Below, in pieces: positions 2 to 49,944 of a stretch of 54,199 nt of DNA (its first letter is position 1; every line of letters starts with the position of its first letter). This DNA comes from a virus, in the IMG/VR virus record IMGVR_UViG_3300028569_000044, positions 1 through 54,199 of that record, one strand, 5' to 3'. The notes beneath the pieces were generated by a model. It saw only the letters and a list, made by a program, of their open reading frames with translations. It was not told the origin of the DNA and did no database searches. Position numbers and translations under genes: made by a program.

Positions 2-1744
2 ATTGGATCATTAGGTAGTAATAATTATCTTAATGTCTGTAGTTATCAAGGTATTGTTTTTAATGTTCAAAATGCGGGATTCGGTTCTCAAGCTGTTAGA
101 ATGCTTATTGATGTTAATGGTAATGTTGGTATTGGCACAAGTAGTCCTGCTTATAAGTTGGAAGTAAATGGTAGTTTATATGCTACCCGATTGAGTGGTA
201 GTGCAATGTTTACAACCAATGGTAAAGGTAGATTTTATGGTACCGCTAGTTATGCTTTAGCAAGTGCTGGTGGTGGAGGTGGTAGTAGTTTAACTGGTCA
301 GACTGATAGTGCAAGTCCATATGAAACATCATTGGGTTATCAAGCGGGAAATGTTAATACTGGATTAGCAATTACCGCTATTGGTTATCAAGCATTAGCT
401 CTTAATACAACTGGATATCAAAACAGTGCATTTGGATATAAAACTTTAACATCCGCCACATTTGGTAGATACAATACGGCTGTAGGATCATTTGCATTAC
501 AAAATACTACGGAGGCTTATAGAAACAACGCATTTGGTGATAATACTTTACGAAACAATACAACTGGAAATGATAATAGTGCGTTTGGTAGAAATGCTTT
601 AAAATATAATACCTATGGATTTGCTAATACGGCTGTAGGTAATCAAGCTTTAGAAGCTAACACAACTGGTTACAAAAATACTTCAGTGGGTAATAGAACA
701 ATGGAAGGATGTACATCAGGTTTCAATAACTCTGCGTTTGGTTATCAAGCGCTTACTTTTGCTTCGGGCAATGAAAATTCAGCATTTGGCTATCAGGCTT
801 TACTATTAAATACTACCAGTTACAATAGTGCATTTGGTAGTCGTGCTTTACGATCCAATACAACCGGTATTAATAGTGCATTTGGTTATAAATCATTATT
901 TTCTAATACAACTGGTAATTTTAATAGTTCGTTTGGTTACAAATCATTACAGTATAACACTATTGGTGTTAGCAACAACGCATTTGGATTTAAATCGTTG
1001 AATGCAAATACCACGGGTGCTAGAAGCATAGCGTTTGGTACTGAAGCTTTATCGATCAATACTACTGGAATAGATAATAGTGGTGTAGGATACAGAGCTC
1101 TATATCTTAATGTAAGTGGAAATTACAATTCAGGATTTGGATCATATGCATTGTATAATAATAAAGGATCAAACAATACATCGGTAGGATTTAATGCTTT
1201 GGCCTTTAATACCACAGGCACACAAAATACAGTAGTTGGAACTCAAGCAGGCACTTCAATTACAACTGGTACAAATCTAACGGTAATAGGTTATAATGCA
1301 CAAGCAAGTGCAGCTACAGCAACAAATCAAATAACTTTAGGTAACAGTAGTGTAGCAACATTACGTTGTCAAGTAACTACTATAACCGCTTTATCAGACT
1401 TTAGAGATAAAACCGATATTACTGACATTCAACTCGGTCTAAGTTTTGTAGAGAAATTAAGACCTGTAACCTTCAAATGGGATAGAAGAGAATGGTACAC
1501 TGACGGTAATAGAGATGGTAGCAAAAAAGATAGTGTCATACAAGCTGGATTTATTGCACAAGAATTAAAAGCACTTCAAGAAGAAGAAGGTGTAGAATTT
1601 TTAAAATTAGTATATGAGGATAACCCAGATAAGTTAGAAGCTACCCCAGGCAATTTGTTGATACCGCTTATCAAAGCGGTACAAGAATTGAGTACAAAAG
1701 TCAAAACACTAGAAGCTAAGGTTCAAATTTTGGAATCTAAATAA
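2..1744 (+). CDS. Tail fibre protein with S74 chaperone (5' end outside window)
   Basis: The reading frame is open to the left edge, so the true start lies outside; the first ATG inside the window is at 101. The visible N-terminal part has the fibre signature VGIGTSSPAYKLEV. It is followed by about 15 imperfect repeats of the type NTTGxxNSAFGYxAL, a beta-roll or stalk-like array. The C-terminus (from about 1390) has the peptidase S74 intramolecular chaperone motif LSDFRDKTDI, where the serine is the expected self-cleavage residue, then GFIAQEL and a C-terminal coiled coil. Family knowledge: S74 domains trimerise tail fibres and then cut themselves off. Likely receptor-binding or host-range fibre. 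Only part of the protein is seen. Confidence 0.92.
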   Translation: MGSLGSNNYLNVCSYQGIVFNVQNAGFGSQAVRMLIDVNGNVGIGTSSPAYKLEVNGSLYATRLSGSAMFTTNGKGRFYGTASYALASAGGGGGSSLTGQTDSASPYETSLGYQAGNVNTGLAITAIGYQALALNTTGYQNSAFGYKTLTSATFGRYNTAVGSFALQNTTEAYRNNAFGDNTLRNNTTGNDNSAFGRNALKYNTYGFANTAVGNQALEANTTGYKNTSVGNRTMEGCTSGFNNSAFGYQALTFASGNENSAFGYQALLLNTTSYNSAFGSRALRSNTTGINSAFGYKSLFSNTTGNFNSSFGYKSLQYNTIGVSNNAFGFKSLNANTTGARSIAFGTEALSINTTGIDNSGVGYRALYLNVSGNYNSGFGSYALYNNKGSNNTSVGFNALAFNTTGTQNTVVGTQAGTSITTGTNLTVIGYNAQASAATATNQITLGNSSVATLRCQVTTITALSDFRDKTDITDIQLGLSFVEKLRPVTFKWDRREWYTDGNRDGSKKDSVIQAGFIAQELKALQEEEGVEFLKLVYEDNPDKLEATPGNLLIPLIKAVQELSTKVKTLEAKVQILESK

Positions 1745-6547: not shown

Positions 6548-7390
6548 TTATAATAATATCCAACCTTTAACAACATTTCGTTTTCGATTGCATAATCCTG
6601 AAATGTTACTTTTTATATTAAATTCAGTTTTTAACTGATATTTTGTACAATATTTATGTAAATTTAAATTTTTATTGTAAAAGTGATAAATTGTAGGATC
6701 GTATGCTGGATTGTTAATACCTTTAGTTCTAATAGATAACTTTCTTGAAAATTCATCGCTCATTTTTCTACCTTTTAATTTTTTAGATATCAATTCTTTT
6801 GTCTCATTATTTCTAGTTTTTCCATATCCCCAATGTTTTTCACCTTTTCTTGAAAAACTCATTTTTGATTTAGCAATATTTGTATGTTTTCTTCCTCTAT
6901 TAGCGTTGCTTATTTTTTCTTTCATTTCTTCTGTTATTTTTAACTTAAAAGCATCGTATCTTTGATTATAATGACTATCAATTTTGTTTTCAAAATCGGA
7001 TTTTATCTTATCTAAATATATTTGTTCAAGTCTCAATAAATCATTTTTATTATCTACACATTCTACGGCGAGAAATTCAAACTCATGTTTTCCATATTTA
7101 TTCCAAGCATTTTGCAAATGATCGTTTTCATGTAAATTATTATTTAATTTATAACGATGTGTTATCCATCTTTTTCTAAAACAAACTGTACTTCCTATAT
7201 AATACTTACCACTTTGTTTATGTATTATTTTATATATCCCCCCTTTTTTTATAATATCTTTCAAGTGATTTTTCTCTACATCGTTTTTTATTTCGGTTGT
7301 AGTAACGCATTTGTCTGTCTTTCCGTGCTTGTAATTTTTCTGATTCGGTAATATACTTTCTCTTTCTTCCCATATAATAGTATCTTTCAT
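6548..7390 (-). CDS. GIY-YIG homing endonuclease with NUMOD repeats
   Basis: 280 codons from an ATG at 7390. The GIY-YIG nuclease domain starts GGIYKIIHKQSGKYYIGST (about residue 50), followed by the catalytic Arg region FRKRW, then NKYGKHEFEF and the metal-binding Glu in LLRLEQIYLDKI. The middle has NUMOD3-like DNA-binding repeats (GRKHTNIAKSKMSFSRKG, GEKHWGYGKT) and the C-terminus a helix-turn-helix-like tail. The first 50 codons are overlapped by a conserved reading frame starting ATGGGAAGAAAG (7230-7373) in another frame; the real N-terminus may come from that frame. Sits just upstream of the FkbM gene. Confidence 0.85.
   Translation of the reverse strand: MKDTIIWEERESILPNQKNYKHGKTDKCVTTTEIKNDVEKNHLKDIIKKGGIYKIIHKQSGKYYIGSTVCFRKRWITHRYKLNNNLHENDHLQNAWNKYGKHEFEFLAVECVDNKNDLLRLEQIYLDKIKSDFENKIDSHYNQRYDAFKLKITEEMKEKISNANRGRKHTNIAKSKMSFSRKGEKHWGYGKTRNNETKELISKKLKGRKMSDEFSRKLSIRTKGINNPAYDPTIYHFYNKNLNLHKYCTKYQLKTEFNIKSNISGLCNRKRNVVKGWILL
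7230..7373 (-). CDS. MGRK basic module overlapping the GIY-YIG gene
   Basis: 47 aa, starts MGRKRKYITESEKLQ and contains RYYNRNKKR and KSLERYYKK. Homologous in length and sequence to the frames at 9808-9963 and 13265-13426, which also overlap GIY-YIG genes in the same relative frame. The overlap ends at AAAAAAAGGGGGG, where a +1 shift would join the Lys-rich module to GGIYKI. It is either a separate small DNA-binding peptide or the frameshifted N-terminus of the nuclease. Confidence 0.6.
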   Translation of the reverse strand: MGRKRKYITESEKLQARKDRQMRYYNRNKKRCREKSLERYYKKRGDI

Positions 7391-9807: not shown

Positions 9808-9963
9808 ATGGGGAGAAAAAAATTAAACAAAACTAAAGATGAATTACTTGAACAACAACGAAATCGTGCAAAAAGATATTATCAACGACACAAGCAAAGA
9901 CTTAACAAAAAATCAATGCAGAAATATTGGGAAAATAAGCGGAATTTACAAAATAGTAAATAA
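9808..9963 (+). CDS. MGRK basic module overlapping the GIY-YIG gene
   Basis: 51 aa, starts MGRKKLNKTKDELL and contains RNRAKRYYQRHKQR and MQKYWENKR. The first ATG after the promoter is this one. Against the copy at 13265, most base changes fall at third positions of this frame (about 12 silent against 3 amino-acid changes, all K/R/E), so this frame, not the GIY-YIG frame, is the constrained one here. At codons AAG CGG a +1 shift would lead into SGIYKI of the nuclease. Confidence 0.68.
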   Translation: MGRKKLNKTKDELLEQQRNRAKRYYQRHKQRLNKKSMQKYWENKRNLQNSK

Positions 9964-10633
9964 AATTGATGGGAAATATTACGTTGGTAGTAGTAAACAT
10001 ATCTATAAAAGATGGAACGCACATGTGCGTTTATTGAATAACAATTGTCATCATAATGATTATTTACAAAATGTTTGGAAAAAGTATGGTAGTAATGCAT
10101 TTGGATTTACAATAGTTGAAGTAACAACTTATGATGAAACATTTTTGATTGAACAAAAGTATTTAGATATAGCAAAGTTGGAACAAGATAAATGTTATAA
10201 TTTAAACTTTGAATCTAAAGGTGGATGTGTAAGTAACTATACAAAAGAAAAAATGAGATTAATCAAAATTAATCATTATAAAAATCCAGAAAATAGAAAA
10301 AAGATAAGTTTAAAATTAAAAGGAATCCCTCTTTCTGAGGAAACAAAGAGAAAAATGAGTATATCAAGAACCGGAGAAAAACATTTTCGTTATGGTAAAA
10401 AACTTACACTTGAACATAAAAATAAATTGAGTGAATCTCATAAAGGCACTAAAAATCCGTGGAGTGATAGAAATATTTATATTTGTTATAATGAATTAAC
10501 AAAAATAAAAGTTACAGGCACACGATATGAACTAAGTAAATTAATGAATTTAAAGCAAGATACCACTAATTATTTAATAAGAAAACAAACTAAAAAAACC
10601 CGTTGTGGATGGGTATTAATTGATCATTCATAA
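9839..10633 (+). CDS. GIY-YIG homing endonuclease with NUMOD repeats
   Basis: 264 codons from ATG at 9839; the recognisable nuclease domain starts at SGIYKIVNKIDGKYYVGSS (about residue 34), with YKRWNAH, KKYGSNAFGF and catalytic-type FLIEQKYLD. NUMOD3-like repeats follow (KISLKLKGIPLSEETKRKMS, GEKHFRYGKK, ESHKGTKNPW), then a C-terminal DNA-binding tail. The 33 codons before SGIY are probably not its real N-terminus (see 9808-9963). Its end overlaps the stop of the DNA ligase C-terminal gene (10624) tail to tail, so the ligase 3' end is the likely homing locus. Confidence 0.85.
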   Translation: MNYLNNNEIVQKDIINDTSKDLTKNQCRNIGKISGIYKIVNKIDGKYYVGSSKHIYKRWNAHVRLLNNNCHHNDYLQNVWKKYGSNAFGFTIVEVTTYDETFLIEQKYLDIAKLEQDKCYNLNFESKGGCVSNYTKEKMRLIKINHYKNPENRKKISLKLKGIPLSEETKRKMSISRTGEKHFRYGKKLTLEHKNKLSESHKGTKNPWSDRNIYICYNELTKIKVTGTRYELSKLMNLKQDTTNYLIRKQTKKTRCGWVLIDHS

Positions 10634-11469
10634 TCACGGATAGTGACCACATATGGGAATCTGGGCACTTCATCTACTGGTGTTAAATTAAAATATTTAA
10701 CTGTAGCTTGTTTACCGATATATTCATTTTTGTTAGAAAGTAATTCTTTTAAGTACGATCTTTGACCCTTAATATTACTATGGAACTCAATATCCTTATG
10801 ATTCTTGAATACCATATGTCCAGCCATACCACTCTTGTTACCTACCCCCTCAACAATGTCAAGAATCTTGAATTCACTATCTTGAAATTCTTTGCGCTTG
10901 AGTAGGTATTTGCTGCGTTTGTTTTCATATGGTCCGTCTGTACGAACCATCTGACCTTCGTAACCTTCGTCAATGTACTTTTCATACAACTCATTTAAAT
11001 GTGTAATCGTGTCCACAAGGTGAGTCGGAACACGACGAACCACATTGTTATTAACAAGATAAGTAGTAATGTCATCATTACGATCACTAAAAGTCTTCTG
11101 TACAATCCAGTCATATACCCAATATTGAATATTCTTTGCACTCTCTGTCAGATCTTCTGGTGTAGGTTTGGTCTTTTTTACCAAACTACAAATAGCATTA
11201 AAGTCATTGGCAAACTTATCAGCATACAACTCACCATCAAGAATTGCATTGGGGAACTTATCAAAGAAAGGTTCTAACGCTTTAAGAACGTGTGGAACTG
11301 AATGAAATTCTTTACCATTTCGGCTAAAAATTCCTTTCTTTGATACAATTGCTCTACAGTTGTGTACCAATACTCCATTTGCAAAAAAGTTGTGGTTGTC
11401 TTGAATTTCTAAATCATATTTGTCAAGACTCTCGATTTTTTTGATTGATTTAATCTTTACAGTTTTCAT
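10624..11469 (-). CDS. Split intein C-part fused to ATP-dependent DNA ligase C-part
   Basis: 281 aa. Residues 1-37 are an intein C-fragment: YDLEIQDNHNFFANGVLVHN ends in the usual His-Asn, then Cys38 is the +1 nucleophile. From Cys38 the protein is ligase: CRAI completes motif I (KLDG + CRA), ILDGELYA, motif III region YWVYDWIV, motif IV EGYEGQMVR, motif V region YLLKRKEFQDSEFKI. Trans-splicing with the product of 12393-13061 would give a 363-aa ligase (119 + 244 residues). Starts 20 nt before the nuclease gene stop at 11450, so it is coupled to it. Without splicing both halves should be inactive, since the active-site lysine is on the other protein. Confidence 0.92.
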   Translation of the reverse strand: MKTVKIKSIKKIESLDKYDLEIQDNHNFFANGVLVHNCRAIVSKKGIFSRNGKEFHSVPHVLKALEPFFDKFPNAILDGELYADKFANDFNAICSLVKKTKPTPEDLTESAKNIQYWVYDWIVQKTFSDRNDDITTYLVNNNVVRRVPTHLVDTITHLNELYEKYIDEGYEGQMVRTDGPYENKRSKYLLKRKEFQDSEFKILDIVEGVGNKSGMAGHMVFKNHKDIEFHSNIKGQRSYLKELLSNKNEYIGKQATVKYFNLTPVDEVPRFPYVVTIRDYE

Positions 11470-12343
11470 CTATTATTCTTTTTATTTTATCAAACTTTTT
11501 TAAAATGTCAAGCTGCCATAAAACTATTACTTTATAGCCAAAATCTTCAATCTGTTTAGTTCTAGCGTTGTCAAATTCCCAAATTTCTTTAACAGTTTTA
11601 GTACCACCCCATTTATAAATTAAATCTGCTGACTTATATATTTTTGGATTTGCGTGCCATTTATCTCCATTTATCTCCAATACTATTTTTTTTGATTCGA
11701 TCAAAATGTCAACTTGTGGCGCATATATTCTATCTAAATAACCATTGTATTTTGTAAATTTATTTTTAACTTCACTTACATAATGTATATTATGTTCTTC
11801 TAAATATTTTTCAATTTTTTTATGAATTTTACTTCTACGCCCATAATTTCTCTCATACCAAGGTAAATTTACAGGAGTATATACTCCATATTTTTCATGC
11901 AATGTTTCTCTACTTTTATTTTTAACATTTTCACATTGAAAAACATTTGACACTCCATATTTTCTTTTTACAGTCCTATTTCTCTTTTTATAACATTTTG
12001 TATTTTTTGATAAAGCATTTTCAGTACCGTACTTTTTAATACAAGTATTTTTATATAAATTTCTTACATTAGGGTTATTTGCTTGTTCTGTTATTGAATT
12101 TGTTTTAATACCATATTCACGACAGAATGAAATAATAGAATCTGCACCTGTTATATATCCCTTTGGTTTTAAAATATTTAAACAGATATAATTAGAACTA
12201 TATTTTTTTTCAAGGACCAATTCAATTAGTAATTCTTTCGTTAAAAACGAACGAATATATAATCGTCTCTTAGGATTTTGAGAAGGCAAATTTAAAATTT
12301 TAATGTCTAATGTTTGATTATTAAATTTTTCTAATTCAGTCAT
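11450..12343 (-). CDS. Vsr-like (EDxHD) homing endonuclease between the ligase halves
   Basis: 297 aa. N-terminal two thirds are basic with short repeats of the type KKYGTENALSK and KYGVYTP, as in DNA-binding parts of free-standing nucleases. The C-terminal domain has VDILIESKKIVLEINGDKWH and the downstream acidic residue of WEFDNARTKQIEDFGYKVIVLW, matching the very-short-patch-repair-like EDxHD homing family. Family knowledge: these nucleases occur between halves of fractured genes that carry split inteins, and cut the unbroken allele. Upstream gap to the N-half is 49 nt; downstream it overlaps the C-half by 20 nt. Confidence 0.88.
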   Translation of the reverse strand: MTELEKFNNQTLDIKILNLPSQNPKRRLYIRSFLTKELLIELVLEKKYSSNYICLNILKPKGYITGADSIISFCREYGIKTNSITEQANNPNVRNLYKNTCIKKYGTENALSKNTKCYKKRNRTVKRKYGVSNVFQCENVKNKSRETLHEKYGVYTPVNLPWYERNYGRRSKIHKKIEKYLEEHNIHYVSEVKNKFTKYNGYLDRIYAPQVDILIESKKIVLEINGDKWHANPKIYKSADLIYKWGGTKTVKEIWEFDNARTKQIEDFGYKVIVLWQLDILKKFDKIKRIIDENCKD

Positions 12344-12392: not shown

Positions 12393-13061
12393 TTATTCTA
12401 ACATTAGAACATCGTTTTCTGTTAGTTCATCTACTCTTCGCCAACATTTAAGTCTCGGTAAATAAATTCTATGATTTCCGGTTACTTTAAGAGATTTACC
12501 ATTATTTAAATCAATTTGATGCCATTGGGTTGAAGATTCATTTATATCTACGCCGTTTTTAAATCTTCCAACAATATTTTTATATTCAAAATTATTGTTT
12601 ATTTCATTGAAAGTTTTAACTTTGCACTCAATGTTATTATTCACGATATCACTGATGTATAGTTCTCCAACATCTGTAGAAACAAGTGTATCTTGACTTA
12701 AACACCCATCCAACTTGGGTTGACTATAAATTGGATACTTAAGATCATCCTTATAATCGTCGTAGTTCTTAGCAAGCATTGGCTTGGTAAAGCTGATACC
12801 ATCAATGTCATTAATCTTTTCAAAGTAACCACTTTCTTTCTTTTTCTTCCAAGTGGCTTTGGCTTCTTTTACAGCTTGATCTTCATTGGAAGTAGCATTC
12901 TTTTTGCCGGTATTTTTACCTTCACAAAGTGTCCACTCAGTGATTTGAATAGCTCCATCAAGCTGACCATAATGGGTACGATACTTGTTGCCATCAACTT
13001 CGATGGTCCAAGTTTGAATAGCACCCGTATTTGTACGGGCGAATAACATAGGTAGTTTCAT
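12393..13061 (-). CDS. ATP-dependent DNA ligase N-part (WGR domain) fused to split intein N-part
   Basis: 222 aa. Residues about 1-80 form a WGR-like domain (WTIEVDGNKYRTHYGQLDGA, then KEAKATWKKKKESGY). Ligase proper starts at KPMLAKNY and ends SQPKLDG with adenylation Lys116. Residue 120 onward is an intein N-fragment (103 aa): Cys120 in CLSQDTLVSTDVGELY (block A) and GKSLKVTGNHRIYL (block B with TxxH). The split falls inside ligase motif I, KLDG | CRA. The stop is after LTENDVLMLE. Own promoter at 13072-13100 sets the start at 13061. Confidence 0.92.
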   Translation of the reverse strand: MKLPMLFARTNTGAIQTWTIEVDGNKYRTHYGQLDGAIQITEWTLCEGKNTGKKNATSNEDQAVKEAKATWKKKKESGYFEKINDIDGISFTKPMLAKNYDDYKDDLKYPIYSQPKLDGCLSQDTLVSTDVGELYISDIVNNNIECKVKTFNEINNNFEYKNIVGRFKNGVDINESSTQWHQIDLNNGKSLKVTGNHRIYLPRLKCWRRVDELTENDVLMLE

Positions 13062-13264: not shown

Positions 13265-13426
13265 ATGGGAAGAAAAAAATTAAACAGAACAAAAGATGAA
13301 CTACTTGAACAACAAAGAAACCGAGCAAAAAAATATTATCAACGACATAAACAAAGACTCAATGAAAAGTCAATGCAAAAATATTGGGAAAATAAGCGGA
13401 ATATACAAAATAATAAACAAGATTGA
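13265..13426 (+). CDS. MGRK basic module overlapping the GIY-YIG gene
   Basis: 53 aa, starts MGRKKLNRTKDELL and includes RNRAKKYYQRHKQR. Differences from the copy at 9808-9963 are mostly silent in this frame. Ends TGA at 13426, about 50 nt inside the GIY-YIG coding region. Same AAG CGG junction to the nuclease frame. Confidence 0.68.
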   Translation: MGRKKLNRTKDELLEQQRNRAKKYYQRHKQRLNEKSMQKYWENKRNIQNNKQD

Positions 13427-14180
13427 CGGTAAATATTATGTCGGAAGTAGTAAAGATATTGTCACGCCTAATATAGGCAGATGGTACATGCACAAATACG
13501 AATTAAATAAAAAAACGCATACAAATGATTATCTCCAAAATGCTTGGAATAAATATGGAGAGGATAGTTTTGAATTTATAATTGTAGAAAAATGTAACCC
13601 CGATCAATTACTAATCGTAGAACAAAAGTATTTGGATGATACTAAAAAAGAACGAAATTTATCTTATAATTTAAGTTTTATTGCTGGTAACATTGAGATG
13701 ACGAATGATGTCAGACAAAAAATCAGTGCAAAATCTCGTGCACGATTAAAAGATAAAACAAAACATCCAAATTACGATGCAAAAATATATAAATTATATA
13801 ATAGAATTACAAACGATACATTTTTAGGTACCAGACAAGATTTTATTTTAAAATACAACGATAAGCATTTTAGTATTAACCATTTAATTTCTGGAAAATT
13901 TCATTCAACCAACGGATGGACATTTGATCCGAATTATGATCTTAAAGGTAATAGGGGTAAAAATTGGACGCAAGAAAGAATAAAATCTGTTAGTGAAAAA
14001 TTTACCGGTAAAAATAATCCATCGTATGATATAACCGTACATAATTTTATCCACGAAGACGGAAGAAAAGAAACCTGTACTAAATACGAATTGTATCACA
14101 AATATAATTTAGATAAAAGTGCTCTTGCCAGAGTTATAAACAGAAAACAAAAACATACAATGTGGTGGAAATTAGAATAA
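13296..14180 (+). CDS. GIY-YIG homing endonuclease
   Basis: 294 codons from ATG at 13296. The nuclease domain begins SGIYKIINKIDGKYYVGSS, followed by GRWYMHKYEL, NKYGEDSFEF and LLIVEQKYLDD. The C-terminal half has DNA-binding modules (DPNYDLKGNRGKNWTQERIK, GKNNPSYDITVHNF, TKYELYHKYNLDKSALARVI). It lies between a broken end of the deaminase gene and the intact deaminase gene, on the opposite strand. The first 33 codons are probably not translated in this frame (see 13265-13426). Confidence 0.85.
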   Translation: MNYLNNKETEQKNIINDINKDSMKSQCKNIGKISGIYKIINKIDGKYYVGSSKDIVTPNIGRWYMHKYELNKKTHTNDYLQNAWNKYGEDSFEFIIVEKCNPDQLLIVEQKYLDDTKKERNLSYNLSFIAGNIEMTNDVRQKISAKSRARLKDKTKHPNYDAKIYKLYNRITNDTFLGTRQDFILKYNDKHFSINHLISGKFHSTNGWTFDPNYDLKGNRGKNWTQERIKSVSEKFTGKNNPSYDITVHNFIHEDGRKETCTKYELYHKYNLDKSALARVINRKQKHTMWWKLE

Positions 14181-23048: not shown

Positions 23049-24212
23049 GTGATAACATATAATACCAAACTTTTGAGCGATTGTCAATCTGATTTAGACG
23101 ATTTGAAGTCTATGATGATTGATCATCAAAAGATTTTTAATATTGCATCCCCTCTTCAATTTGTTGAAAAAAAGAATTCTATCGTTGTTTTACATTCAAA
23201 AGTTTACCACAATGTTCGTAAACAATTCCCCTATGTAAACTCTCAAGTCGTTATAAAAGCTGAACAAGAATGTTTAGCCTCCTATAGAAGCGTTAAATCA
23301 AATAAACACAAATTAAAAAAACCAATTGAGAAAAAGAACTTGTCTATTCGCTTGGATAAGAGATTGTATTCGTTTCCTACGGATAGATCAATAAAAATTA
23401 CAACATCAAATGGAAAAAAGAATTTCAAATTTCAATTGTATCCAAAACTTGTAGAATTATTAAATAAATACAAATATGTTGATCCATTGATTTATGTTGA
23501 AAATGGAGAAATATACATTTCGCTACCGTTTGATAATAAATCTAAAGAATCATTAAAACAAAAATTAGCTTTGGGAGTTGATATCGGAATTCGTCGTAGT
23601 GTCGCCCTTAGTGATGGACGAATCATAGTTGATAGAAAATTTAATGGAGACAAACGCAAACTTCGTCACTTAAAAGATACTTTGAAATCTAAAGGCACTA
23701 AAAGTGCTAGAAGACATCTTCACAAACTTCGTCATAAAGAAGCAAACAAAAATAGAAATCAATCTCATTTAATTGCCAATGAGGTTTTAAGAACCGAAGC
23801 AGACACTATTGTTCTAGAAAATCTCAAAGGAATTAAAGTAAAAAAACATAAATATCAAAATAAGCGTTCCATTAGCCAAGTGCCAATGTTTGAACTTCGT
23901 AGAATAATATCTTACAAGGCAGAGAATCAAGGTAAAACCGTGACTCTTGTTAGCCCTTCTTATACTTCTCAAAGAGATTCCGTAACTGGAAGAATTGAAG
24001 GAGAAAGAAGAGGTTGTAGATTTTACTCTAAAAACGATCTTATTTATGATGCGGATGTTAACGCTGCAATCAATATAGCCAAAACATCCAAACTTCCCGT
24101 ATCACAAACTAACCGTTTGACTTATGGGCAGGTTGTCGTCAACCAACCAATCGTATGTAAGCCCTCTGTTGCACAAACAGCGGCATTACAAGCCCCTATG
24201 GCTTTAGCCTAG
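23049..24212 (+). CDS. tnpB: TnpB, RNA-guided nuclease of IS605 type
   Basis: 387 aa from GTG 23049. RuvC residues: Asp in LALGVDIGIRR (about 178), Glu in IVLENLKGI (about 257), Asp in DADVNAAINIA (about 336). The usual zinc-finger cysteines are missing: the region reads TSQRDSVTGRIEGERRGCRF with a single Cys. The last part of the gene overlaps the expected guide RNA. Divergent from tnpA, 64-nt spacer. Confidence 0.9.
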   Translation: MITYNTKLLSDCQSDLDDLKSMMIDHQKIFNIASPLQFVEKKNSIVVLHSKVYHNVRKQFPYVNSQVVIKAEQECLASYRSVKSNKHKLKKPIEKKNLSIRLDKRLYSFPTDRSIKITTSNGKKNFKFQLYPKLVELLNKYKYVDPLIYVENGEIYISLPFDNKSKESLKQKLALGVDIGIRRSVALSDGRIIVDRKFNGDKRKLRHLKDTLKSKGTKSARRHLHKLRHKEANKNRNQSHLIANEVLRTEADTIVLENLKGIKVKKHKYQNKRSISQVPMFELRRIISYKAENQGKTVTLVSPSYTSQRDSVTGRIEGERRGCRFYSKNDLIYDADVNAAINIAKTSKLPVSQTNRLTYGQVVVNQPIVCKPSVAQTAALQAPMALA

Positions 24213-33230: not shown

Positions 33231-33370
33231 CGTCTTGGAATTACCAAACTGCTTAAATCTGGTAATGTATAACCTTGTTTAATTAACTCACGGGTATCTT
33301 TTACAATTTTATCAAAATATTCCAATCTCATTTTGATATCTTCACGTTCTTTCTTTGTAAGCTTCTTCAT
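33227..33370 (-). CDS. Small hypothetical protein
   Basis: 47 aa, starts MKKLTKKEREDIKMRLEYFD and ends LSSLVIPRR. ATGA overlaps with thymidylate synthase upstream and with the 35-aa gene downstream. Helical. Function unknown. Confidence 0.62.
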   Translation of the reverse strand: MKKLTKKEREDIKMRLEYFDKIVKDTRELIKQGYTLPDLSSLVIPRR

Positions 33371-34230
33371 ACAGCTACTTTAAACTTTACACTAGGTAGT
33401 GGTTCATAGTCAAGTAAAATTGTATCACTATATTGCCAATCATATATTGATTTAAAGTTATCAGTTTTTATGGTTGGCAAGCTACTCGTTGCATCTCTAC
33501 TTAACAATTCTTTAATTCCATCTATATGATTTAGATAAATGTGTGCATCTGCAAAGAATCCAACTAACATACCTTCTTTTAAATTAGATTCCTTTGCTAA
33601 AAGATGTAAGAGCAATCCATAAGTATTTAAATCATTACCCAACACAAAATCTACACTTCGCATATAGTAAAACAAATTGAGTTTACCGTCTGTAACATTT
33701 ACTTGCCAAGCAAAATGGCAAGGCGGTAATGCCATATATTCTAATGCTAGAGGATTCCAAGCACTACACAACATTCTTCTACTATTAGGATTAGATTTAA
33801 GAGCATCTACTACATCTTTTAATTGATCTTTTATTGTAGATCCATAAAGATTTTGAGGATCTTGAAAATGTCTCCATTGCTTTCCATATATTTCACCTAA
33901 ATCATCACATTCTTCCATTTTCTTCTTGGTATCAACGTCAATACCATATGGAACTACTTGTGGGTTACACCATTGATTCCAATAATTACATCCTCTTTCT
34001 TTATACCATTGTTTGGATGTAATGCCTTTAATAAATCCTTCTAATTCAATTGCAGCAGATTTAAATGGAACAGTTCGTAATGTAAGCAATGGATATCCAT
34101 CCGACATATCGTGACGGATCATTACGCCTGGAAAAGAAATTGTTCCGGTTCCAGTTCTATCTTCTTTTTTATATCCCTTTGTTAGGATTAACTCTAAAGT
34201 TTCTTGAAATGTTTTATCTAAATTAGACAT
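33367..34230 (-). CDS. thyA: Thymidylate synthase
   Basis: 287 aa from ATG 34230 (MSNLDKTFQETLELILTKGY). Family hallmarks: RTGTGTISFPG (phosphate Arg loop), LPPCHFAWQVNV (catalytic Cys), RSVDFVLGNDLNTYGLLLHL (dUMP-binding Asn/Asp region), HIYLNHIDGI. Methylates dUMP to dTMP with methylene-tetrahydrofolate, producing dihydrofolate that the adjacent DHFR recycles. Start chosen because DHFR stops at 34232. Confidence 0.96.
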   Translation of the reverse strand: MSNLDKTFQETLELILTKGYKKEDRTGTGTISFPGVMIRHDMSDGYPLLTLRTVPFKSAAIELEGFIKGITSKQWYKERGCNYWNQWCNPQVVPYGIDVDTKKKMEECDDLGEIYGKQWRHFQDPQNLYGSTIKDQLKDVVDALKSNPNSRRMLCSAWNPLALEYMALPPCHFAWQVNVTDGKLNLFYYMRSVDFVLGNDLNTYGLLLHLLAKESNLKEGMLVGFFADAHIYLNHIDGIKELLSRDATSSLPTIKTDNFKSIYDWQYSDTILLDYEPLPSVKFKVAV

Positions 34231-34231
34231 A

Positions 34232-34720
34232 TTACTTACTATACTTGATAACTTTGTGCCCGTCAAATTCTTTTACTGTTTCTTGATTATTAAATGTATC
34301 TTCAAAACTAGACATAAATACATCACCATCATAATTGCCATTTACATGCGTAACATAAAATTCCTTAATATAAGGCAGTAACTTAAGATAAGTTTTAGCA
34401 CCACCAGCAACAATTAAATAGTCTTTTCTAAATTGACTATATGATTCAAGATCTGTCATTGTAATCAGTTGTCCAGTCATAGAATTATTGTTTACTAGAT
34501 ATTGATTTGGATTTGCAGCCATTATTTTGTCTTCTTTGACTAGTACAAGACATTCTCTATTTTTTAGAAATGGTAGTGTATCAAATGTATTTTTACCCAC
34601 AATAAGTGTTCCACCCATTGTAAATTCTTTGAACCACTTGAAGTCGTTTGGAACATACCACGGAATTTTATTTTCTTTTCCGATACATCGGTTTTCAGAC
34701 ATTGCCATTATTGATTTCAT
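34232..34720 (-). CDS. Dihydrofolate reductase
   Basis: 162 aa. MKSIMAMSENRCIGKENKIP, then WYVPNDFKWFK (substrate acid Asp), VGKNTFDTLPF, IVAGGAKTYL (NADPH GG loop). Regenerates tetrahydrofolate for ThyA. Its 5' side carries a homing gene, and beyond that a truncated DHFR start, so this copy probably arrived with the homing gene. Confidence 0.95.
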   Translation of the reverse strand: MKSIMAMSENRCIGKENKIPWYVPNDFKWFKEFTMGGTLIVGKNTFDTLPFLKNRECLVLVKEDKIMAANPNQYLVNNNSMTGQLITMTDLESYSQFRKDYLIVAGGAKTYLKLLPYIKEFYVTHVNGNYDGDVFMSSFEDTFNNQETVKEFDGHKVIKYSK

Positions 34721-41587: not shown

Positions 41588-41964
41588 AGTAGTTTTAGAT
41601 GTTTAGTGACTGGATCAATTTTAGAACTATAATCTGGTCCAATGGCTAGACAAGTGAAAGTAGGTTTATCAAATCCAGTGGTTTCTTCAATATATTTGAC
41701 TGATAGACCCAGTATAACAGCTTGATATCCAATGTCAAGTAGTTCTTCTTCACTATTTACAGCCAAACAAACCTTAAAGAAAGTTCCTTTAATCCATTGT
41801 TCTTCACGATGATTGAATGGAATAACATCGTCGGGATATGCTCTGACTAGATTGGTTAAGAAAGCAATACTTGCATGAGCACCTTGAGCAACCATTTGTC
41901 CTTTGCTCAATTGCAAATCCTTACGCATTATTATGGTTTGCTTTATTCTGTCGTTTTCTTTCAT
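41584..41964 (-). CDS. Peptidyl-tRNA hydrolase 2 (PTH2) family protein
   Basis: 126 aa. QTIIMRKDLQLSKGQMVAQG then AHASIAF is the PTH2 active-site region (Lys and AQGAHA motif); FTCLAIGPDYSSKID and TKHLKLL fit the family end. PTH2 frees tRNA from stalled peptidyl-tRNA; it is mainly archaeal/eukaryotic with some bacterial and viral members. Its 5' end overlaps the homing gene end by 44 nt. Confidence 0.88.
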   Translation of the reverse strand: MKENDRIKQTIIMRKDLQLSKGQMVAQGAHASIAFLTNLVRAYPDDVIPFNHREEQWIKGTFFKVCLAVNSEEELLDIGYQAVILGLSVKYIEETTGFDKPTFTCLAIGPDYSSKIDPVTKHLKLL

Positions 41965-42796
41965 ATATTCCTTTTTGTTTTAAAACTCTAATAATCAAAT
42001 ATTTAGATATTCCGTGTTTTTTGGCCATTTCATTTGTAACTTTTTTAGTAGATTGATAATCAAATATTAATGATGTTATCATATTTTCATCAATGTGTTT
42101 ATAACATGGATTTTTACTTCCGATCATATGATTTTTCATTTTTTCACGACCTTGATCTGTAATGCCAATCTTTTTTCCATTTATATCTAAATTTTTTTTG
42201 TGTGATTCAGACATTTTTGTTCTAACCACTTCCAATCCAGATTTACTATTTTTAGATATTTTTTCTCTAATTTCAGATGCTTTTTTCAGACCATATTTTT
42301 CATTATATGATCGTTGTTTATCTTTTATTATTTGTTTGGCTTTTTCATCACCAAATCTCATTTCATAAGTTTTTCCTTTTAATTCATCAGATAGTCTTTT
42401 TTTATTTTCTTCGTTTTGATTATAATCAATTAAATTTTTACATACATTACTAGAAATTGCAAATTTTCTAATTTTTTCTTTTGTAACATCTGAATGTTTC
42501 CATCCAAGAATACCACGACCACCCTCCGTTAAATTATAACCAAACTTTGAAAAAGTATTATACTTTTTAATACACTCGATTTCTTTTACATTCAATTCTT
42601 CAAATGAAGAAGCTTTATATATAACTTCCCATGAAAAATTTTGTTTTCCATACTTTTTGATTGATCTATGAAAATAATATGTGCTTCCTCTATATGCTGC
42701 ATTCAAATGTGCAGCTTTACGCTTTTTAAGTGTTTGAATTGTTTGACCAACATATTTCATTTGGTTCACCAAATTAGTTACAAGATAAATGATCAT
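41921..42796 (-). CDS. GIY-YIG homing endonuclease
   Basis: 291 aa from ATG 42796 (MIIYLVTNLVNQMKYVGQTI). The nuclease domain has IIYLVTN...MKYVGQT in place of GIY-YIG, KKRKAAHLNAA, HRSIKKYGKQNFSWEVIYKA and NVKEIECIKKYNTF. C-terminal DNA-binding part with ASEIREKISKNSKSGLEVVR and a final helix-turn-helix (EMAKKHGISKYLIIRVLKQK). No MGRK module. It lies between a PTH2 remnant and the intact PTH2. Confidence 0.87.
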   Translation of the reverse strand: MIIYLVTNLVNQMKYVGQTIQTLKKRKAAHLNAAYRGSTYYFHRSIKKYGKQNFSWEVIYKASSFEELNVKEIECIKKYNTFSKFGYNLTEGGRGILGWKHSDVTKEKIRKFAISSNVCKNLIDYNQNEENKKRLSDELKGKTYEMRFGDEKAKQIIKDKQRSYNEKYGLKKASEIREKISKNSKSGLEVVRTKMSESHKKNLDINGKKIGITDQGREKMKNHMIGSKNPCYKHIDENMITSLIFDYQSTKKVTNEMAKKHGISKYLIIRVLKQKGIYERKRQNKANHNNA

Positions 42797-42839
42797 ATAC
42801 AATATATATGATCATCATAACCAAAAACAATTTATCTCT

Positions 42840-43756: not shown

Positions 43757-44104
43757 TTATTTCCACGTTTTATGTTCTTCAGCAATATATTCACCCCCGT
43801 TAGTTTCTGACCTCCTAATGAGCCATTTAACATCATCTGGAATTTCTACTACTTTAAGTTTGATATATTTTCCTTGACCTGCTTTTTCACCCAAAGTTTC
43901 TACAACTTGTACAAGAGTAGAGTCCGTTCTATCAATATTCCAATCATCAATTATGTTTTCATCATTTTCTTCATTTTTATAGAAAATTTTAAAAGTATCA
44001 TCACCCCGTGTGATTAGATTATAACCTTTGAGTTTAGCATATAGAATATGCGCTTCTGAACTTAGGTAGAAACCGCCATAACTTGAGTTGATAACCACTT
44101 TCAT
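43757..44104 (-). CDS. Hypothetical protein (MKVVIN-YGGF family)
   Basis: 115 aa from ATG 44104 (MKVVINSSYGGFYLSSEAHI). Paralogue of 22035-22502, shorter at the C-terminus. The promoter at 44112-44140 fixes this start. Confidence 0.74.
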   Translation of the reverse strand: MKVVINSSYGGFYLSSEAHILYAKLKGYNLITRGDDTFKIFYKNEENDENIIDDWNIDRTDSTLVQVVETLGEKAGQGKYIKLKVVEIPDDVKWLIRRSETNGGEYIAEEHKTWK

Positions 44105-44111
44105 TTTTAAG

Positions 44112-44140
44112 AGTATACCAGATAGATTTCTGAAAGTCAA
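44112..44140 (-). promoter_or_regulatory. Sigma70-like promoter at the end of the xxQL array
   Basis: TTGACT, 17 nt, TATACT with TGG before the -10; 7 nt to the ATG at 44104. The -35 contains the TGA stop of the last xxQL gene. Confidence 0.84.
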
Positions 44141-44277
44141 ATATTTTTCTTGTCAAATTCATTGTATAATTGATCGTCTAATTGATTGTATAATTGACGG
44201 TTTAATTGACTGTGTAATTGATCGTATAATTGATTCTGTAATTGAATTTTATGTTTTATTGGTTTTGTGAAATTCAT
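44137..44277 (-). CDS. xxQL-repeat protein, copy 8 (short)
   Basis: 46 aa: MNFTKPIKHK, then QLQNQLYDQLHSQLNRQL, ending YNEFDKKNI. Shortest copy with a divergent C-terminus; its DNA start resembles copy 1. Ends in the promoter of the next gene. Overlaps copy 7 by 29 nt. Confidence 0.75.
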   Translation of the reverse strand: MNFTKPIKHKIQLQNQLYDQLHSQLNRQLYNQLDDQLYNEFDKKNI

Positions 44278-44482
44278 TGTGTAATTGACTGTTTAATTGA
44301 TTGAATAATTGACGGTCTAATTGAGTGTATAATTGATCGGATAATTGATTGTATAATTGAGTGTTTGATTGACTGTTTAATTGATTGTTTAATTGAGTCC
44401 ATAATTGTTTGTCTAATTGAGTCTGTAATTGATGTGATAATTGAGTGAATAATTTAGTTTTTATTGGTTTTGTGAAGTTCAT
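44249..44482 (-). CDS. xxQL-repeat protein, copy 7
   Basis: 77 aa. Head MNFTKPIKTKLFTQL, about 13 xxQL units (one QS variant: LNSQSNTQL), tail HNEFHKTNKT. Overlaps copies 6 and 8 by 29 nt each. Confidence 0.78.
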   Translation of the reverse strand: MNFTKPIKTKLFTQLSHQLQTQLDKQLWTQLNNQLNSQSNTQLYNQLSDQLYTQLDRQLFNQLNSQLHNEFHKTNKT

Positions 44483-44675
44483 TTTCTAATTGAGTGTTTA
44501 ATTGCCAGCCTAATTGATCGGATAATTGATGGGATAATTGATGGGATAATTGATTGAATAATTTAGTGGATAATTTAGTGCCTAATTGATCCCATAATTG
44601 ACGGTGTAATTGCCAGTCTAATTGAGTGTCTAATTGAGTGTGTAATTTATTTCGTATTGAATTGTTGAATTTCAT
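44454..44675 (-). CDS. xxQL-repeat protein, copy 6
   Basis: 73 aa. Head MKFNNSIRNKLHTQL, repeats including HRQLWDQLGTKLSTKL and SHQLSHQLSDQLGWQL, tail ENELHKTNKN. Two units have KL in place of QL. Confidence 0.78.
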   Translation of the reverse strand: MKFNNSIRNKLHTQLDTQLDWQLHRQLWDQLGTKLSTKLFNQLSHQLSHQLSDQLGWQLNTQLENELHKTNKN

Positions 44676-44856
44676 TGTATAATTGATGGGATAATTGACG
44701 GGTTGTTTGAGTGTGTAATCGATTGTATAATTGCCAGTCTAATTGAGTGTCTAATTGAGTGTGTAATTTATTTCGTATTGAATTGTTGAATTCATCCCAT
44801 AATTGACGGTTTAATTGATCTCTTAATTTATTTGTTATTGGTTTTGTGAAGTTCAT
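44647..44856 (-). CDS. xxQL-repeat protein, copy 5
   Basis: 69 aa. Head MNFTKPITNKLRDQL, then an internal second head (FNNSIRNKLHTQL), meaning two units fused or recombined. Some units are altered (YNRLHTQTTRQL). Tail YNEIQQFNTK. Confidence 0.76.
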   Translation of the reverse strand: MNFTKPITNKLRDQLNRQLWDEFNNSIRNKLHTQLDTQLDWQLYNRLHTQTTRQLSHQLYNEIQQFNTK

Positions 44857-45007
44857 TGTATAATTGAATATATAATTGATCGGTTAATTGATCGGTTAAT
44901 TGATCGGTTAATTGATCGGCTAATTGATCTTCTAATTGAGGGTGCTCGAATAATGTACGGCATAATTGAGTGTGTAATTTATTTGATAGTGGATTGTTCA
45001 AGTTCAT
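44828..45007 (-). CDS. xxQL-repeat protein, copy 4
   Basis: 59 aa. Head MNLNNPLSNKLHTQL, an irregular part (CRTLFEHPQLEDQLADQL), then four near-identical TDQL units (LTDQLTDQLTDQL), a sign of recent slippage or unequal crossover. Tail YNELHKTNNK. The 29-nt overlaps with copies 3 and 5 are exact. Confidence 0.75.
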   Translation of the reverse strand: MNLNNPLSNKLHTQLCRTLFEHPQLEDQLADQLTDQLTDQLTDQLYIQLYNELHKTNNK

Positions 45008-45188
45008 GGCGTAATTGCCAGTGTAATTGATTGTGTAATTGACTGGATAATTGATTGTATAATTGATCGTATAATTGAGTGTCTAATTGAGTGTATAATT
45101 CATCGTGTAATTGTTCTTCTAATTGACGGAATAATTGAGTGTGTAATTGATTGTATAATTTAGTTTTTAGTGGAGTGTTGAATTTCAT
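44979..45188 (-). CDS. xxQL-repeat protein, copy 3
   Basis: 69 aa. Head MKFNTPLKTKLYNQL, repeats FRQLEEQLHDELYTQL and YDQLYNQLSSQLHNQL, tail RHELEQSTIK. Confidence 0.78.
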   Translation of the reverse strand: MKFNTPLKTKLYNQLHTQLFRQLEEQLHDELYTQLDTQLYDQLYNQLSSQLHNQLHWQLRHELEQSTIK

Positions 45189-45381
45189 GGCGTAATTGAC
45201 TGACTAATTGATCGGATAATTGCCAATATAATTTCTCGATTAATTGATCGTATAATTGATTGTGCAATTTATTGGATAATTGAGTGTGCAATTGCCAGTG
45301 TAATTGTTCTTCTAATTGACGGAATAATTGAGTGTGTAATTGAGTGTGTAATTTATTTAATAGTGGATTGTTGAAGTTCAT
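45160..45381 (-). CDS. xxQL-repeat protein, copy 2
   Basis: 73 aa. Head MNFNNPLLNKLHTQL, repeats FRQLEEQLHWQLHTQL shared with copy 3, tail RHEIQHSTKN. Confidence 0.78.
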   Translation of the reverse strand: MNFNNPLLNKLHTQLHTQLFRQLEEQLHWQLHTQLSNKLHNQLYDQLIEKLYWQLSDQLVSQLRHEIQHSTKN

Positions 45382-45568
45382 TGCGTAATTGATTGTTTAA
45401 TTGACTGGATAATTGATCGTATAATTGAGTGATTAATTGATTGCGTAATTGAAGGTTTAATCGATCTTCTAATTGATCTTCTAATTGACGGTTTAATTGA
45501 CTGTGTAATTGATCGTATAATTGATTCTGTAATTGAATTTTATGTTTTATTGGTTTTGTGAAATTCAT
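45353..45568 (-). CDS. xxQL-repeat protein, copy 1 (first of the array)
   Basis: 71 aa from ATG 45568 (MNFTKPIKHKIQLQNQL). Repeats NRQLEDQLEDRLNLQL and YDQLSSQLNNQL, tail RNELQQSTIK. Begins 17 nt after the double terminator; no clear promoter of the TTGACW type is seen before it. Confidence 0.78.
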   Translation of the reverse strand: MNFTKPIKHKIQLQNQLYDQLHSQLNRQLEDQLEDRLNLQLRNQLITQLYDQLSSQLNNQLRNELQQSTIK

Positions 45569-45584
45569 TGTGTAATAAATAAAA

Positions 45585-45640
45585 GCCTCCAATAATGTGT
45601 GATATTGGAGGCCTCCAATAATGTGTGATATTGGAGGCTT
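45585..45640 (-). terminator. Tandemly duplicated terminator hairpin
   Basis: The 26-bp unit from 45585 is repeated exactly at 45611-45636; each forms GCCTCCAATA/TATTGGAGGC with an 8-nt loop. On the minus strand it is followed by TTTTATTTATT. Separates the DUF6745-like gene from the xxQL array. Confidence 0.88.
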
Positions 45641-45662
45641 TTTAATTAGGATTAAATATCTA

Positions 45663-46544
45663 TCAGGCGATGTTAATAATCTTCATTTCACGGCCACCAA
45701 ATCGTTCTTTAATTGCCGACTTTAAATCTTGACAGCTTGGGCTTACAGCCTCCATATGCCAAATTCCAGTTGTCTGATTCAACATCTTAACAAATGGTTG
45801 ATAATCCAAACCTGGAAACAACACCTTCAAATCCCACAATTCATACTGACTCTTATGCCACCAACTATGGGTTTTCTTTGAATATTTCTTATAACTATCA
45901 ACCTTAGTGCCAAGATGTGCCATACGCTCAACGCCGTATTTACGGACAAATTCTGCCTTAATATCAGCATTGGTTTCCTTAAGAAAGACATTGATATCAA
46001 GATACTCACTAGGAGTCATAACAAGATATTCATTCACTTTCACGCCGTTCAAATAATACATTCCCCAACCATCGGCATATTCAATCGCTTTATCGCTTTC
46101 GCAATGTAGAAAACCACCGTCATTGACTGACAATTTAATTGGTCGTTCAATGATAATACAATCATTTTCATACGGAAACCACCAATGCAAATGTTCTGCT
46201 TCTTGCATCCACAATGCGAGCAACTCGGAATTTTCCTTTTCATACTTTATACCGATTGTTTCACAAAAAGTGTAAAACGCCTTCCAATATACCCACTGTT
46301 GTCCCCCGAAATAATTATCCAATTTAACTTCGGGATGTTTGGTAATCAGTTCAAACGCACTACGAAAATAGTGAAAATTAGGTTTATTAAAACCAATGTG
46401 TTTATATAACTTGGTAATGACATCTTCCGCCTTTTCGTGATCAATAGGCACAATTGAACGCCCAACATTGAGATTTTTCTGATAAAATTCTTTGAGGAAA
46501 ATCTCTTGTTCCGGAGTCAGTGATGTGATTTTTTCTGAGGACAT
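45663..46544 (-). CDS. DUF6745-like protein
   Basis: 293 aa. QQWVYWKAFYTFCETIGIKY, WWFPYENDCIIIERPIKLSV, FLHCESDKAIEYADGWGMYY, LNGVKVNEYLV and VRKYGVERMAHL match the layout of the DUF6745 family (W..F, WWP.E..C, ERP, LH....AI.Y.DG). Function unknown; this family is mostly found in bacteria, often next to small HGE-type proteins like the gene at 46574. Confidence 0.78.
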   Translation of the reverse strand: MSSEKITSLTPEQEIFLKEFYQKNLNVGRSIVPIDHEKAEDVITKLYKHIGFNKPNFHYFRSAFELITKHPEVKLDNYFGGQQWVYWKAFYTFCETIGIKYEKENSELLALWMQEAEHLHWWFPYENDCIIIERPIKLSVNDGGFLHCESDKAIEYADGWGMYYLNGVKVNEYLVMTPSEYLDINVFLKETNADIKAEFVRKYGVERMAHLGTKVDSYKKYSKKTHSWWHKSQYELWDLKVLFPGLDYQPFVKMLNQTTGIWHMEAVSPSCQDLKSAIKERFGGREMKIINIA

Positions 46545-46573: not shown

Positions 46574-46918
46574 TTAGTCTCGGACTTTTTGAAGTCTTGC
46601 AGCAAACGGATCATATTCGAATTGACTACCGAATTCATATGTATTACCAGCTGGTAATACAATTTCACTGTGGCGTGAATCTATCACACATCGAATTGCG
46701 GTATCAACACTATTTTGCATATATAGTGTTCCAGTTTCACTTTGGAAAAATTCCACGCCTGGCATAACATCCACAATGTGATGATTACCAGTTGTTTCAC
46801 TCGGAGCAACAATAACATAATTATCGTTGATGTTCATTTTCTTGGCATTTGTTGGCAAATTGCTCAAAAATACCATACACTCACCGTGTAGGATTACTTC
46901 GTTTTCATTAATTTTCAT
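46574..46918 (-). CDS. Partner of the DUF6745-like protein
   Basis: 114 aa. HGECMVFLSNLPTNA, APSETTGNHHIVDVMPGVEF and a C-terminal FEYDPFAARLQKVRD. Proteins with HGE and TGNHH motifs commonly stand beside DUF6745 genes (recalled, not checked). Own promoter at 46940-46968. Confidence 0.7.
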   Translation of the reverse strand: MKINENEVILHGECMVFLSNLPTNAKKMNINDNYVIVAPSETTGNHHIVDVMPGVEFFQSETGTLYMQNSVDTAIRCVIDSRHSEIVLPAGNTYEFGSQFEYDPFAARLQKVRD

Positions 46919-48721: not shown

Positions 48722-49944
48722 TATTTTTCACTTTTTGTATTTAAAATATATACTTATATGAAGTGATAACATATAATACACAACTTTTAATGAAAAATCA
48801 AGAAGACTTTGATAGTTTAAAGTCAATTCTTGAAATGCATAGAGTTGTATTTAACTTTGCTTCACAACTCCAATTCAAAGAAACAAAAAATAGTTTAGTA
48901 GTTTTACATTCTAAAGTATATAATAACATTCGTAAACAATATTCAAATATACCATCTCAAGTTATCATTAAAGCAGAACAAGAATGTTTATCAAGTTATA
49001 AATCTACAAAGTCAAATAAACATAAATTAAAAAAATCAATTGAAAAGAAAAATCTTTCAATGCGGTTGGATAAAAGACTTTATTCAAAAAACAAAAGTGA
49101 TAAATATTCAATTCGTATAACCACCACTTCTGGAAGACAATCTTTTAAATTTGTAGTATATCCAAAACTAAAAGAATTATTGGACAAGTATGAATATACA
49201 GATCCTCTAATTTATGAAAATGATGGTAAATTATTTATATCATTTACATTTGATAATAAACCCAACGAACAATTAAAACAAAAACTAGCATTAGGAGTTG
49301 ATATTGGCATTCGTAGAAATGTCGCTTGTAGTGATGGTAGAATAGTCATTGATAGAAAATTCAACGGGGATAAACGCAAACTTCGTCATCTAAAAGATAA
49401 TCTCAAGTCTAAAGGCACCAAAAGTGCTAGAAGACATCTTGGTAAATTAAGACATAAAGAAGCTAACAAAAATAGAAATCAAACTCATTTAATAGCTAAT
49501 TTAGTATTAAAAACAGAAGCAGATACTATTGTATTAGAAAATTTAAATGGTATAAAGAAAAAGAAACATAAATATCAAAATAAGCGTTCAATTGGACAAG
49601 TGCCAATGTTTGAACTTCGTAGAGTAATATCCTATAAGGCGGAGAACCTTGGTAAATCGGTTCTACTAGTTCGCCCTTATTATACATCACAGATTGATAG
49701 TGTTACTGGCAATCGTGATGGAGAAAGAAGAGGTTGTAGATTTTATTCTAAGAACGGACTTATTTATGATGCGGACATTAATGCAGCAATTAATATTGCT
49801 AAATTGTCCAAACTTCCCGTATCACAGACTAATTACCTGACTTATGGGCAGGCTGTTGTCAATCAGCCAATCGTATGTAAGCCCTCTGTTGCACAAACAG
49901 CGGCATTACAAGCCCCTATGGCTTTAGCCTAGGGGTTGTTGACA
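48722..49944 (+). mobile_element. TnpB-only IS605-type remnant or non-autonomous element
   Basis: Shares TTTTTCACTTTTTG and GTGATAACATATAATAC upstream, the tnpB gene, and the same right end (hairpin 49913-49935, GTTGTTGACA) with the element at 22510-24224. No tnpA and no left-end hairpin are seen, so the left border is unknown. Confidence 0.75.
48763..49932 (+). CDS. tnpB: TnpB, second copy
   Basis: 389 aa from GTG 48763. RuvC residues kept: LALGVDIGIRR, IVLENLNGI, YDADINAAINIA. The zinc-finger part again lacks cysteines (TSQIDSVTGNRDGERRGCRF). Roughly three quarters identical to the first copy, with codons shifted to the AT-rich phage style (TTA, AAA, ATT), suggesting longer residence. Appears intact and could still act as an RNA-guided nuclease without a transposase. 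Confidence 0.88.
   Translation: MITYNTQLLMKNQEDFDSLKSILEMHRVVFNFASQLQFKETKNSLVVLHSKVYNNIRKQYSNIPSQVIIKAEQECLSSYKSTKSNKHKLKKSIEKKNLSMRLDKRLYSKNKSDKYSIRITTTSGRQSFKFVVYPKLKELLDKYEYTDPLIYENDGKLFISFTFDNKPNEQLKQKLALGVDIGIRRNVACSDGRIVIDRKFNGDKRKLRHLKDNLKSKGTKSARRHLGKLRHKEANKNRNQTHLIANLVLKTEADTIVLENLNGIKKKKHKYQNKRSIGQVPMFELRRVISYKAENLGKSVLLVRPYYTSQIDSVTGNRDGERRGCRFYSKNGLIYDADINAAINIAKLSKLPVSQTNYLTYGQAVVNQPIVCKPSVAQTAALQAPMALA

Follow-up and report, generated by a model that had tools for sequence, protein, structure and literature searches.

We describe a widespread phage and prophage module built around a hypervariable array of four-residue repeats, which shows a strong excess of amino-acid-changing variation and appears to be undescribed; in the open-access literature on DUF6745, repeat strings, STM401x and tetrapeptides, the arrays were found nowhere. 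In the window, by which we mean the whole stretch of DNA analysed here, a 54,199-base virus record, the array takes the form of eight small overlapping genes next to a gene of the DUF6745 family. Dozens of other phages and prophages have a long tetrapeptide array of this kind within the DUF6745 protein itself. Judged from the sequences, the way in which these arrays change looks like that of a rapidly reshuffled recognition module.

Eight overlapping mini-genes

The open reading frames listed for the window include eight consecutive, ATG-initiated ones on the minus strand, running from 45568 down to 44137 and composed of xxQL units, that is, two variable residues (x1 and x2) and a fixed pair. 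Mini-gene 1 (45353..45568; 71 aa), with the head MNFTKPIKHKI and the tail NEL, is followed by mini-genes 2 (45160..45381; 73 aa), 3 (44979..45188; 69 aa), 4 (44828..45007; 59 aa), 5 (44647..44856; 69 aa), 6 (44454..44675; 73 aa) and 7 (44249..44482; 77 aa), and by a short mini-gene 8 (44137..44277; 46 aa). All seven junctions overlap by exactly 29 nt, each with a +1 frame step, which confirms the constant overlap claimed in an earlier note on this DNA. That note had counted 8–14 units per gene; the repeats stand, and the range becomes 7–13 when strict xxQL units are counted. After copy 8, and overlapping it by 26 nt, comes a degenerate ninth head (44034..44162, minus strand), which reads MNLTRKI with no repeats after it and is, from its translation, a probable decayed ninth copy. 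The remaining open frames of the array, on either strand, are by-products of its 12-bp period. Neither DNA similarity nor protein searches with the mini-gene array against phage records gave a match.

Traces of copying are seen at several scales. The TDQL unit of mini-gene 4, ACCGATCAATTA, is present three times in identical form, bearing out the fresh expansion that had been noticed there, and 65 nt are identical between mini-genes 5 and 6, which is the head of gene 6 copied inside gene 5, again as described. Mini-genes 1 and 8 share the same first 87 nt at their 5' ends. Furthermore, two related records that are 99.6–100% identical (L315 and L334) differ by the loss of exactly one whole mini-gene, so that the proposed duplication of whole genes, with recombination, is upheld by these relatives together with the identities between copies 1 and 8 and copies 5 and 6.

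The 12-bp unit of the window is CAATTA NNC NNT, and the fixed hexamer CAATTA is found in 79 of the 97 units. At x1, 54 of 56 codons for two-fold-degenerate residues have C as their last base, against 22% in the rest of the phage (Fisher p = 3e-30), which prefers T-ending codons, the opposite of x1; at x2, all 48 codons for D, N and H have T there (p = 4e-6). The limited codon set reported earlier is thus real and also position-specific. Third codon positions of x1 and x2 are set by their place in the unit and not by codon usage, so that the first and second bases of these codons vary and the synonymous positions do not.

A DUF6745 gene and its small partner

Upstream of the mini-genes on the same strand lies a gene for a 293-aa protein without an internal repeat array (45663..46544, minus strand). 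It is a member of Pfam family PF20530 (DUF6745), with E = 1.1e-11 and 44.9 bits against a curated cut-off of 27, and it scores 45.3 bits in a genome search with the same model; it also matches phrog_31813 (E = 1.5e-9). Its orthologues in L164 and L165 are 61% and 52% identical. The three mini-proteins scanned against PF20530 gave no match.

Directly upstream of the DUF6745 gene is a partner gene of 114 aa (46574..46918, minus strand), related to phrog_27831 by an iterated HMM (E = 2e-26). The window protein itself is below the direct reach of the phrog_27831 model, which its L164 orthologue matches weakly (E = 0.003). Both phrog_31813 and phrog_27831 are unannotated families. Proteins of the partner family have 100–130 aa and the consensus QGDVL..GEVTGH.H..HEEH..I.LP.G.Y.V..QREY.P, and at 77 of the 84 untruncated DUF6745 loci a phrog_27831-like gene is found on the same strand no more than 1.8 kb away, upstream or downstream. 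At the array-bearing phage DUF6745 loci examined, no neighbour other than this partner gene recurs.

Between the DUF6745 gene and mini-gene 1, an RNA hairpin with a T-rich tail is predicted (45579..45642, minus strand; z-score −7.2 against shuffles). The region consists of a perfect hairpin duplicated in tandem (GCCTCCAATAnnnnnnnnTATTGGAGGC twice), just before mini-gene 1, and a scan for terminator-like elements gave a hit inside it, at 45617–45580. It is a possible terminator or attenuator, and with so strong a hairpin and its T-rich tail the DUF6745 gene and the mini-genes of the window may be transcribed separately or attenuated.

Several other features of the window phage are worth recording. 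An ATP-dependent DNA ligase is apparently split by an intein over three minus-strand frames (12393–13061, 11450–12343 and 10624–11469), in the order N-terminal intein half (PF14890), endonuclease-like ORF (DUF7487/DUF559) and C-terminal intein half with ligase domains; from this domain order, the locus looks like a fractured-gene split intein with a homing endonuclease in between. An IS200-type TnpA (PF01797; 22577–22984, minus strand) lies beside a TnpB-like gene with a Cas12f1-like TNB domain (23049–24212, plus strand), and another TnpB-like gene (48763–49932, plus strand), at a distance of 25 kb, has no obvious TnpA. GIY-YIG-like homing endonuclease ORFs were recognized by eye at 6548–7390 and 41921–42802 on the minus strand and at 9839–10633 and 13296–14180 on the plus strand. 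The thymidylate synthase and DHFR ORFs (33367–34266 and 34232–34720, both minus strand) overlap by 35 nt, and a tail-fibre-like protein (101–1744, plus strand) carries a C-terminal chaperone of endosialidase (Peptidase_S74) domain.

Arrays within DUF6745 proteins

Scanning IMG/VR for the pattern brought up many contigs whose DUF6745 protein contains an xxQL array, placed after an N-terminal helical part and before a conserved C-terminal part. Arrays with other fixed residues occupy DUF6745 proteins too, namely xSSL (L159, L099 and L300), xxAV (L030, L135 and L140), xxEL (L063), xxQV (L291 and L299), xSNL (L168) and xDAT (L148). Tetrapeptide arrays of the window type, with a hydrophobic fourth position and two variable positions, are therefore found both beside and inside DUF6745. 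The earlier note, sound on duplication and recombination, had missed the DUF6745 gene, the second small gene and this usual, internal position of the array. As a separate observation, L148:1489-3141 (minus strand) and L149:1483-2751 (minus strand) encode DUF6745 proteins with xDAT and xxAV arrays, and in L149 the opposite strand of the array DNA can be read as separate ORFs with YQL-type repeats.

The association holds among contigs that were found by a CAGCTY-type DNA pattern only, with DUF6745 unused in the search: the family is encoded by 49 of the 55 contigs with variable arrays and by 10 of the 25 whose arrays are uniform (Fisher p = 1e-5). Contigs of the uniform CAGCTY kind (QLQL, LLQL and so on) were set aside as unrelated simple repeats. 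Microcystis phages encode DUF6745 without any array, showing that the array is dispensable for the domain.

A genome scan with the DUF6745 alignment yielded zero confirmed hits, and one with the DNA pattern gave mostly simple repeats and a few real loci, L182 and L194 among them. DUF6745 was encountered in 1 of 199 Sphingomonadales genomes, which points to sporadic occurrence. On plasmids of Deinococcus, Methylobacterium and Streptomyces (L292, L294 and L295), the pair of DUF6745 and small partner adjoins genes of the STM4011–STM4015 radical-SAM cluster, and the Deinococcus and Methylobacterium proteins have leucine-rich repeats ahead of the DUF6745 C-terminal part.

Stand-alone mini-genes in relatives

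The closest relatives of the window DUF6745 protein (L152, L164 and L165) likewise have no internal array. In L165 there are six mini-genes: the DUF6745 stop codon overlaps the first GTG start (GTGA, 4 nt), the later genes overlap by exactly 14 nt, and the heads MKSTREQL and MKPIKEQL alternate. L322 has four mini-genes with three 4-nt ATGA overlaps, L112 has arrays flanking DUF6745 on both sides with 8-nt GTG overlaps, and L152 has one mini-gene directly downstream of DUF6745 and a further one on that contig at a distance of about 6 kb. Constant overlaps arise repeatedly because the junction duplicates together with the gene. The earlier note had named random decay in relatives, beforehand, as an outcome that would count against its reading; what the relatives show is that frames, heads, tails and constant overlaps are kept.

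The same place in L164 is occupied by a pair of genes with a 32-nt overlap. Their DNA is non-repetitive, yet along most of each protein every fourth residue is L or F. That the leucine period is retained without DNA repetition indicates constraint at the protein level.

Variation and turnover of the units

The comparison covered 34 arrays located within DUF6745 ORFs and, in each, was made pairwise between those units that have the modal fixed pair. pN exceeds pS in 31 of them and pS is exactly 0 in 21, statistics to be read in the knowledge that units within one array are non-independent and that many NGG/GRC-type arrays probably share ancestry, leaving perhaps ten independent cases among the 34. 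Three arrays show the reverse, pS > pN (L025, L137 and L063). For the window array, pN is 0.295 and pS 0.098. Such an excess of amino-acid-changing variation, with almost zero synonymous variation, fits the earlier suggestion of combinatorial surfaces.

Within an array the units are written in a very uniform code. One hexamer encodes the fixed pair in 32 of the 34 arrays, and, for letters used at least three times, 140 of 148 have a single codon. For arginine, almost all arrays keep to one codon (only AGG or only CGG, for example), which points to copied unit types and away from repeated mutation. At x1, R is the most widespread letter, in 30 of 34 arrays, ahead of G (28), W (20), D (13) and Y (9); relative to the supply expected from one-step mutation, R, W, D and Y are in excess and A, V, L, S and P deficient. 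Array lengths range from about 7 to 70 units, and stop codons are absent.

Turnover is visible in prophages of Mycobacterium abscessus whose flanks are 99.3–99.6% identical. L160 and L296, with flanks at 99.3–99.4%, have 47 versus 20 units, and their internal units are all drawn from six unit types; in L297 the array differs again and the 630-nt C-terminal part is identical.

Structure prediction and similarity searches

AlphaFold2 predicts mini-protein 7 of the window as a single helix over residues 4–76 (mean pLDDT 92), and for the DUF6745 protein of L119 it gives well-predicted DUF6745 parts and an array that is helical at low confidence. These models are to be read with the tendency of AlphaFold2 to draw helices for repetitive sequence in mind; about half of the residues of the window mini-genes (N, D, S, T and H) are poor helix formers. 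In a helix, a leucine period of four residues would produce a strongly twisting hydrophobic stripe, unlike the stripe of heptad coiled coils.

Foldseek searches with the L119 model found nothing in the PDB and, among viral models, matched only DUF6745 and uncharacterized phage proteins. Sequence searches of the PDB with DUF6745 and mini-gene profiles also returned nothing, and the PADLOC models gave no significant match, only marginal ones (E of 0.002 and 0.005) to low-complexity arrays.

Proposed role and alternative explanations

The reading that we favour, and to which we give about an even chance, is that the mini-genes encode co-translated helical proteins that correspond to a detached DUF6745 array, reshuffled by unit copying and under diversifying selection, probably for binding. 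A small set of unit letters would be copied to rebuild the arrays, through recombination or unequal crossing-over, and selection would retain letters that differ in their side chains, x1 and x2 being the contact positions of a binding surface. The array would then be a segment for combinatorial recognition, carried on DUF6745 as a platform; when fused it would act in cis, and the split mini-genes would act in trans, with several specificities simultaneously. The sequence data back the first part of this reading, genuine proteins translated together that represent the DUF6745 array in detached form. Co-translation is read from the GTGA and 14-nt overlaps of L165, the ATGA overlaps of L322 and the GTG overlaps of L112. 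The recognition role is inferred from the selection pattern, the restricted letters, the rapid turnover and the leucine-rich repeats of some cellular relatives, and the gene neighbourhoods seen suggest an intracellular role rather than one in the virion.

The most plausible rival, which we consider unlikely, is that the array is a mechanical rod, spacer, ruler or filament segment, in which only length and the fixed L/Q would matter and x1 and x2, being exposed to solvent, would drift. The long predicted helix, the wide range of array lengths and the variety of fixed pairs tolerated (QL, SL, AV, EL, QV and NL) all agree with such a segment. Drift should, however, leave synonymous changes, which are missing altogether from those 21 of the 34 arrays, and the letters are chemically restricted even though a single mutation would suffice to reach A, V, L or S.

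A bolder version of recognition, improbable in our estimate, would make the array a letter-coded polymer in which every unit reads a single element of a linear target, be it nucleic acid, peptide or glycan. Specificity would be spelled by the order of R, G, W/Y and D/E, either in one long array fused to DUF6745 or, in the window phage, in eight different ones.

Three further explanations seem very improbable to us. If the 12-bp repeats acted as DNA or RNA (binding sites, a recombination hot spot or an origin) and the frames were a by-product, the fixed third codon positions of the window and the openness of the array in other frames and on the opposite strand would be natural; yet xxQL is encoded by CAATTA, CAGCTC, CAGCTT, CAACTC or CAGTTA depending on the phage, the period of L164 outlives the repetitive DNA, and the arrays sit in frame within DUF6745. 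Slippage-prone, functionless low-complexity sequence is a similarly poor prospect: duplications inside arrays and block repeats would be expected of it, but not the lack of any stop codon in arrays of up to about 70 units, the selection signature, the conserved heads, tails and overlaps or the recurring two-gene context. Equally slight is the chance that a modifying enzyme uses the repeats as multi-core precursor peptides, an idea prompted by the STM4011–STM4015 radical-SAM neighbourhoods of the three plasmids, where the cellular DUF6745 proteins have no tetrapeptide arrays; at the array-bearing phage loci examined, only the small partner gene recurs as a neighbour.

Least probable of all, targeted hypermutation, for example by a diversity-generating retroelement, could account for changes being limited to one or two codons per unit, but the one codon per letter per array speaks for copying, and such a retroelement was rejected for the tested records since no reverse transcriptase (RVT_1) is present in any of the 13, the window and 12 related ones, and the CAATTA adenines stay fixed.

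If the arrays of the favoured recognition reading do bind, phages would have a way to diversify specificity fast that needs no mutator, and a unit of four residues would make an unusually small scaffold for modular binding. In the window lineage the mini-genes are separate and countable, and the near-identical M. abscessus prophages differ mainly in the array, so that both lend themselves to a direct test of the question.

Comparison with known systems

PF20530 is the known family closest at hand: the adjoining gene is a member, and many members contain an internal tetrapeptide array, whereas the mini-genes lack the DUF6745 domain and the Pfam entry gives neither a function nor a visible repeat array.

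Pentapeptide-repeat proteins also have a very short repeat that combines fixed hydrophobic and free positions. They differ in their A(D/N)LXX unit and β-solenoid fold from the arrays here, which have a four-residue period and a predicted helix, and the mini-proteins scanned gave no hit at E<=10 to the pentapeptide families of Pfam.

TALE repeats have 33–35 residues, of which positions 12 and 13 are variable; they act in eukaryotic nuclei and read DNA bases. The arrays resemble them in their near-identical DNA repeats, two adjacent variable residues, small alphabet and recombination-driven turnover of length and order, but a mini-gene unit has four residues, no homology is shown, and the unit falls outside the definition of a TALE repeat. 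When letter-to-base codes were sought for five arrays, each against its own locus only, four did no better than shuffled strings and L078 was marginal (22 versus a shuffled maximum of 21).

Variable lymphocyte receptors and other leucine-rich-repeat recognition arrays shuffle modular repeats to diversify a binding surface. Although the repeat, the predicted fold and the genetic mechanism are different here, the modular repeats are a shared feature, and some cellular DUF6745 proteins themselves carry leucine-rich repeats ahead of the domain.
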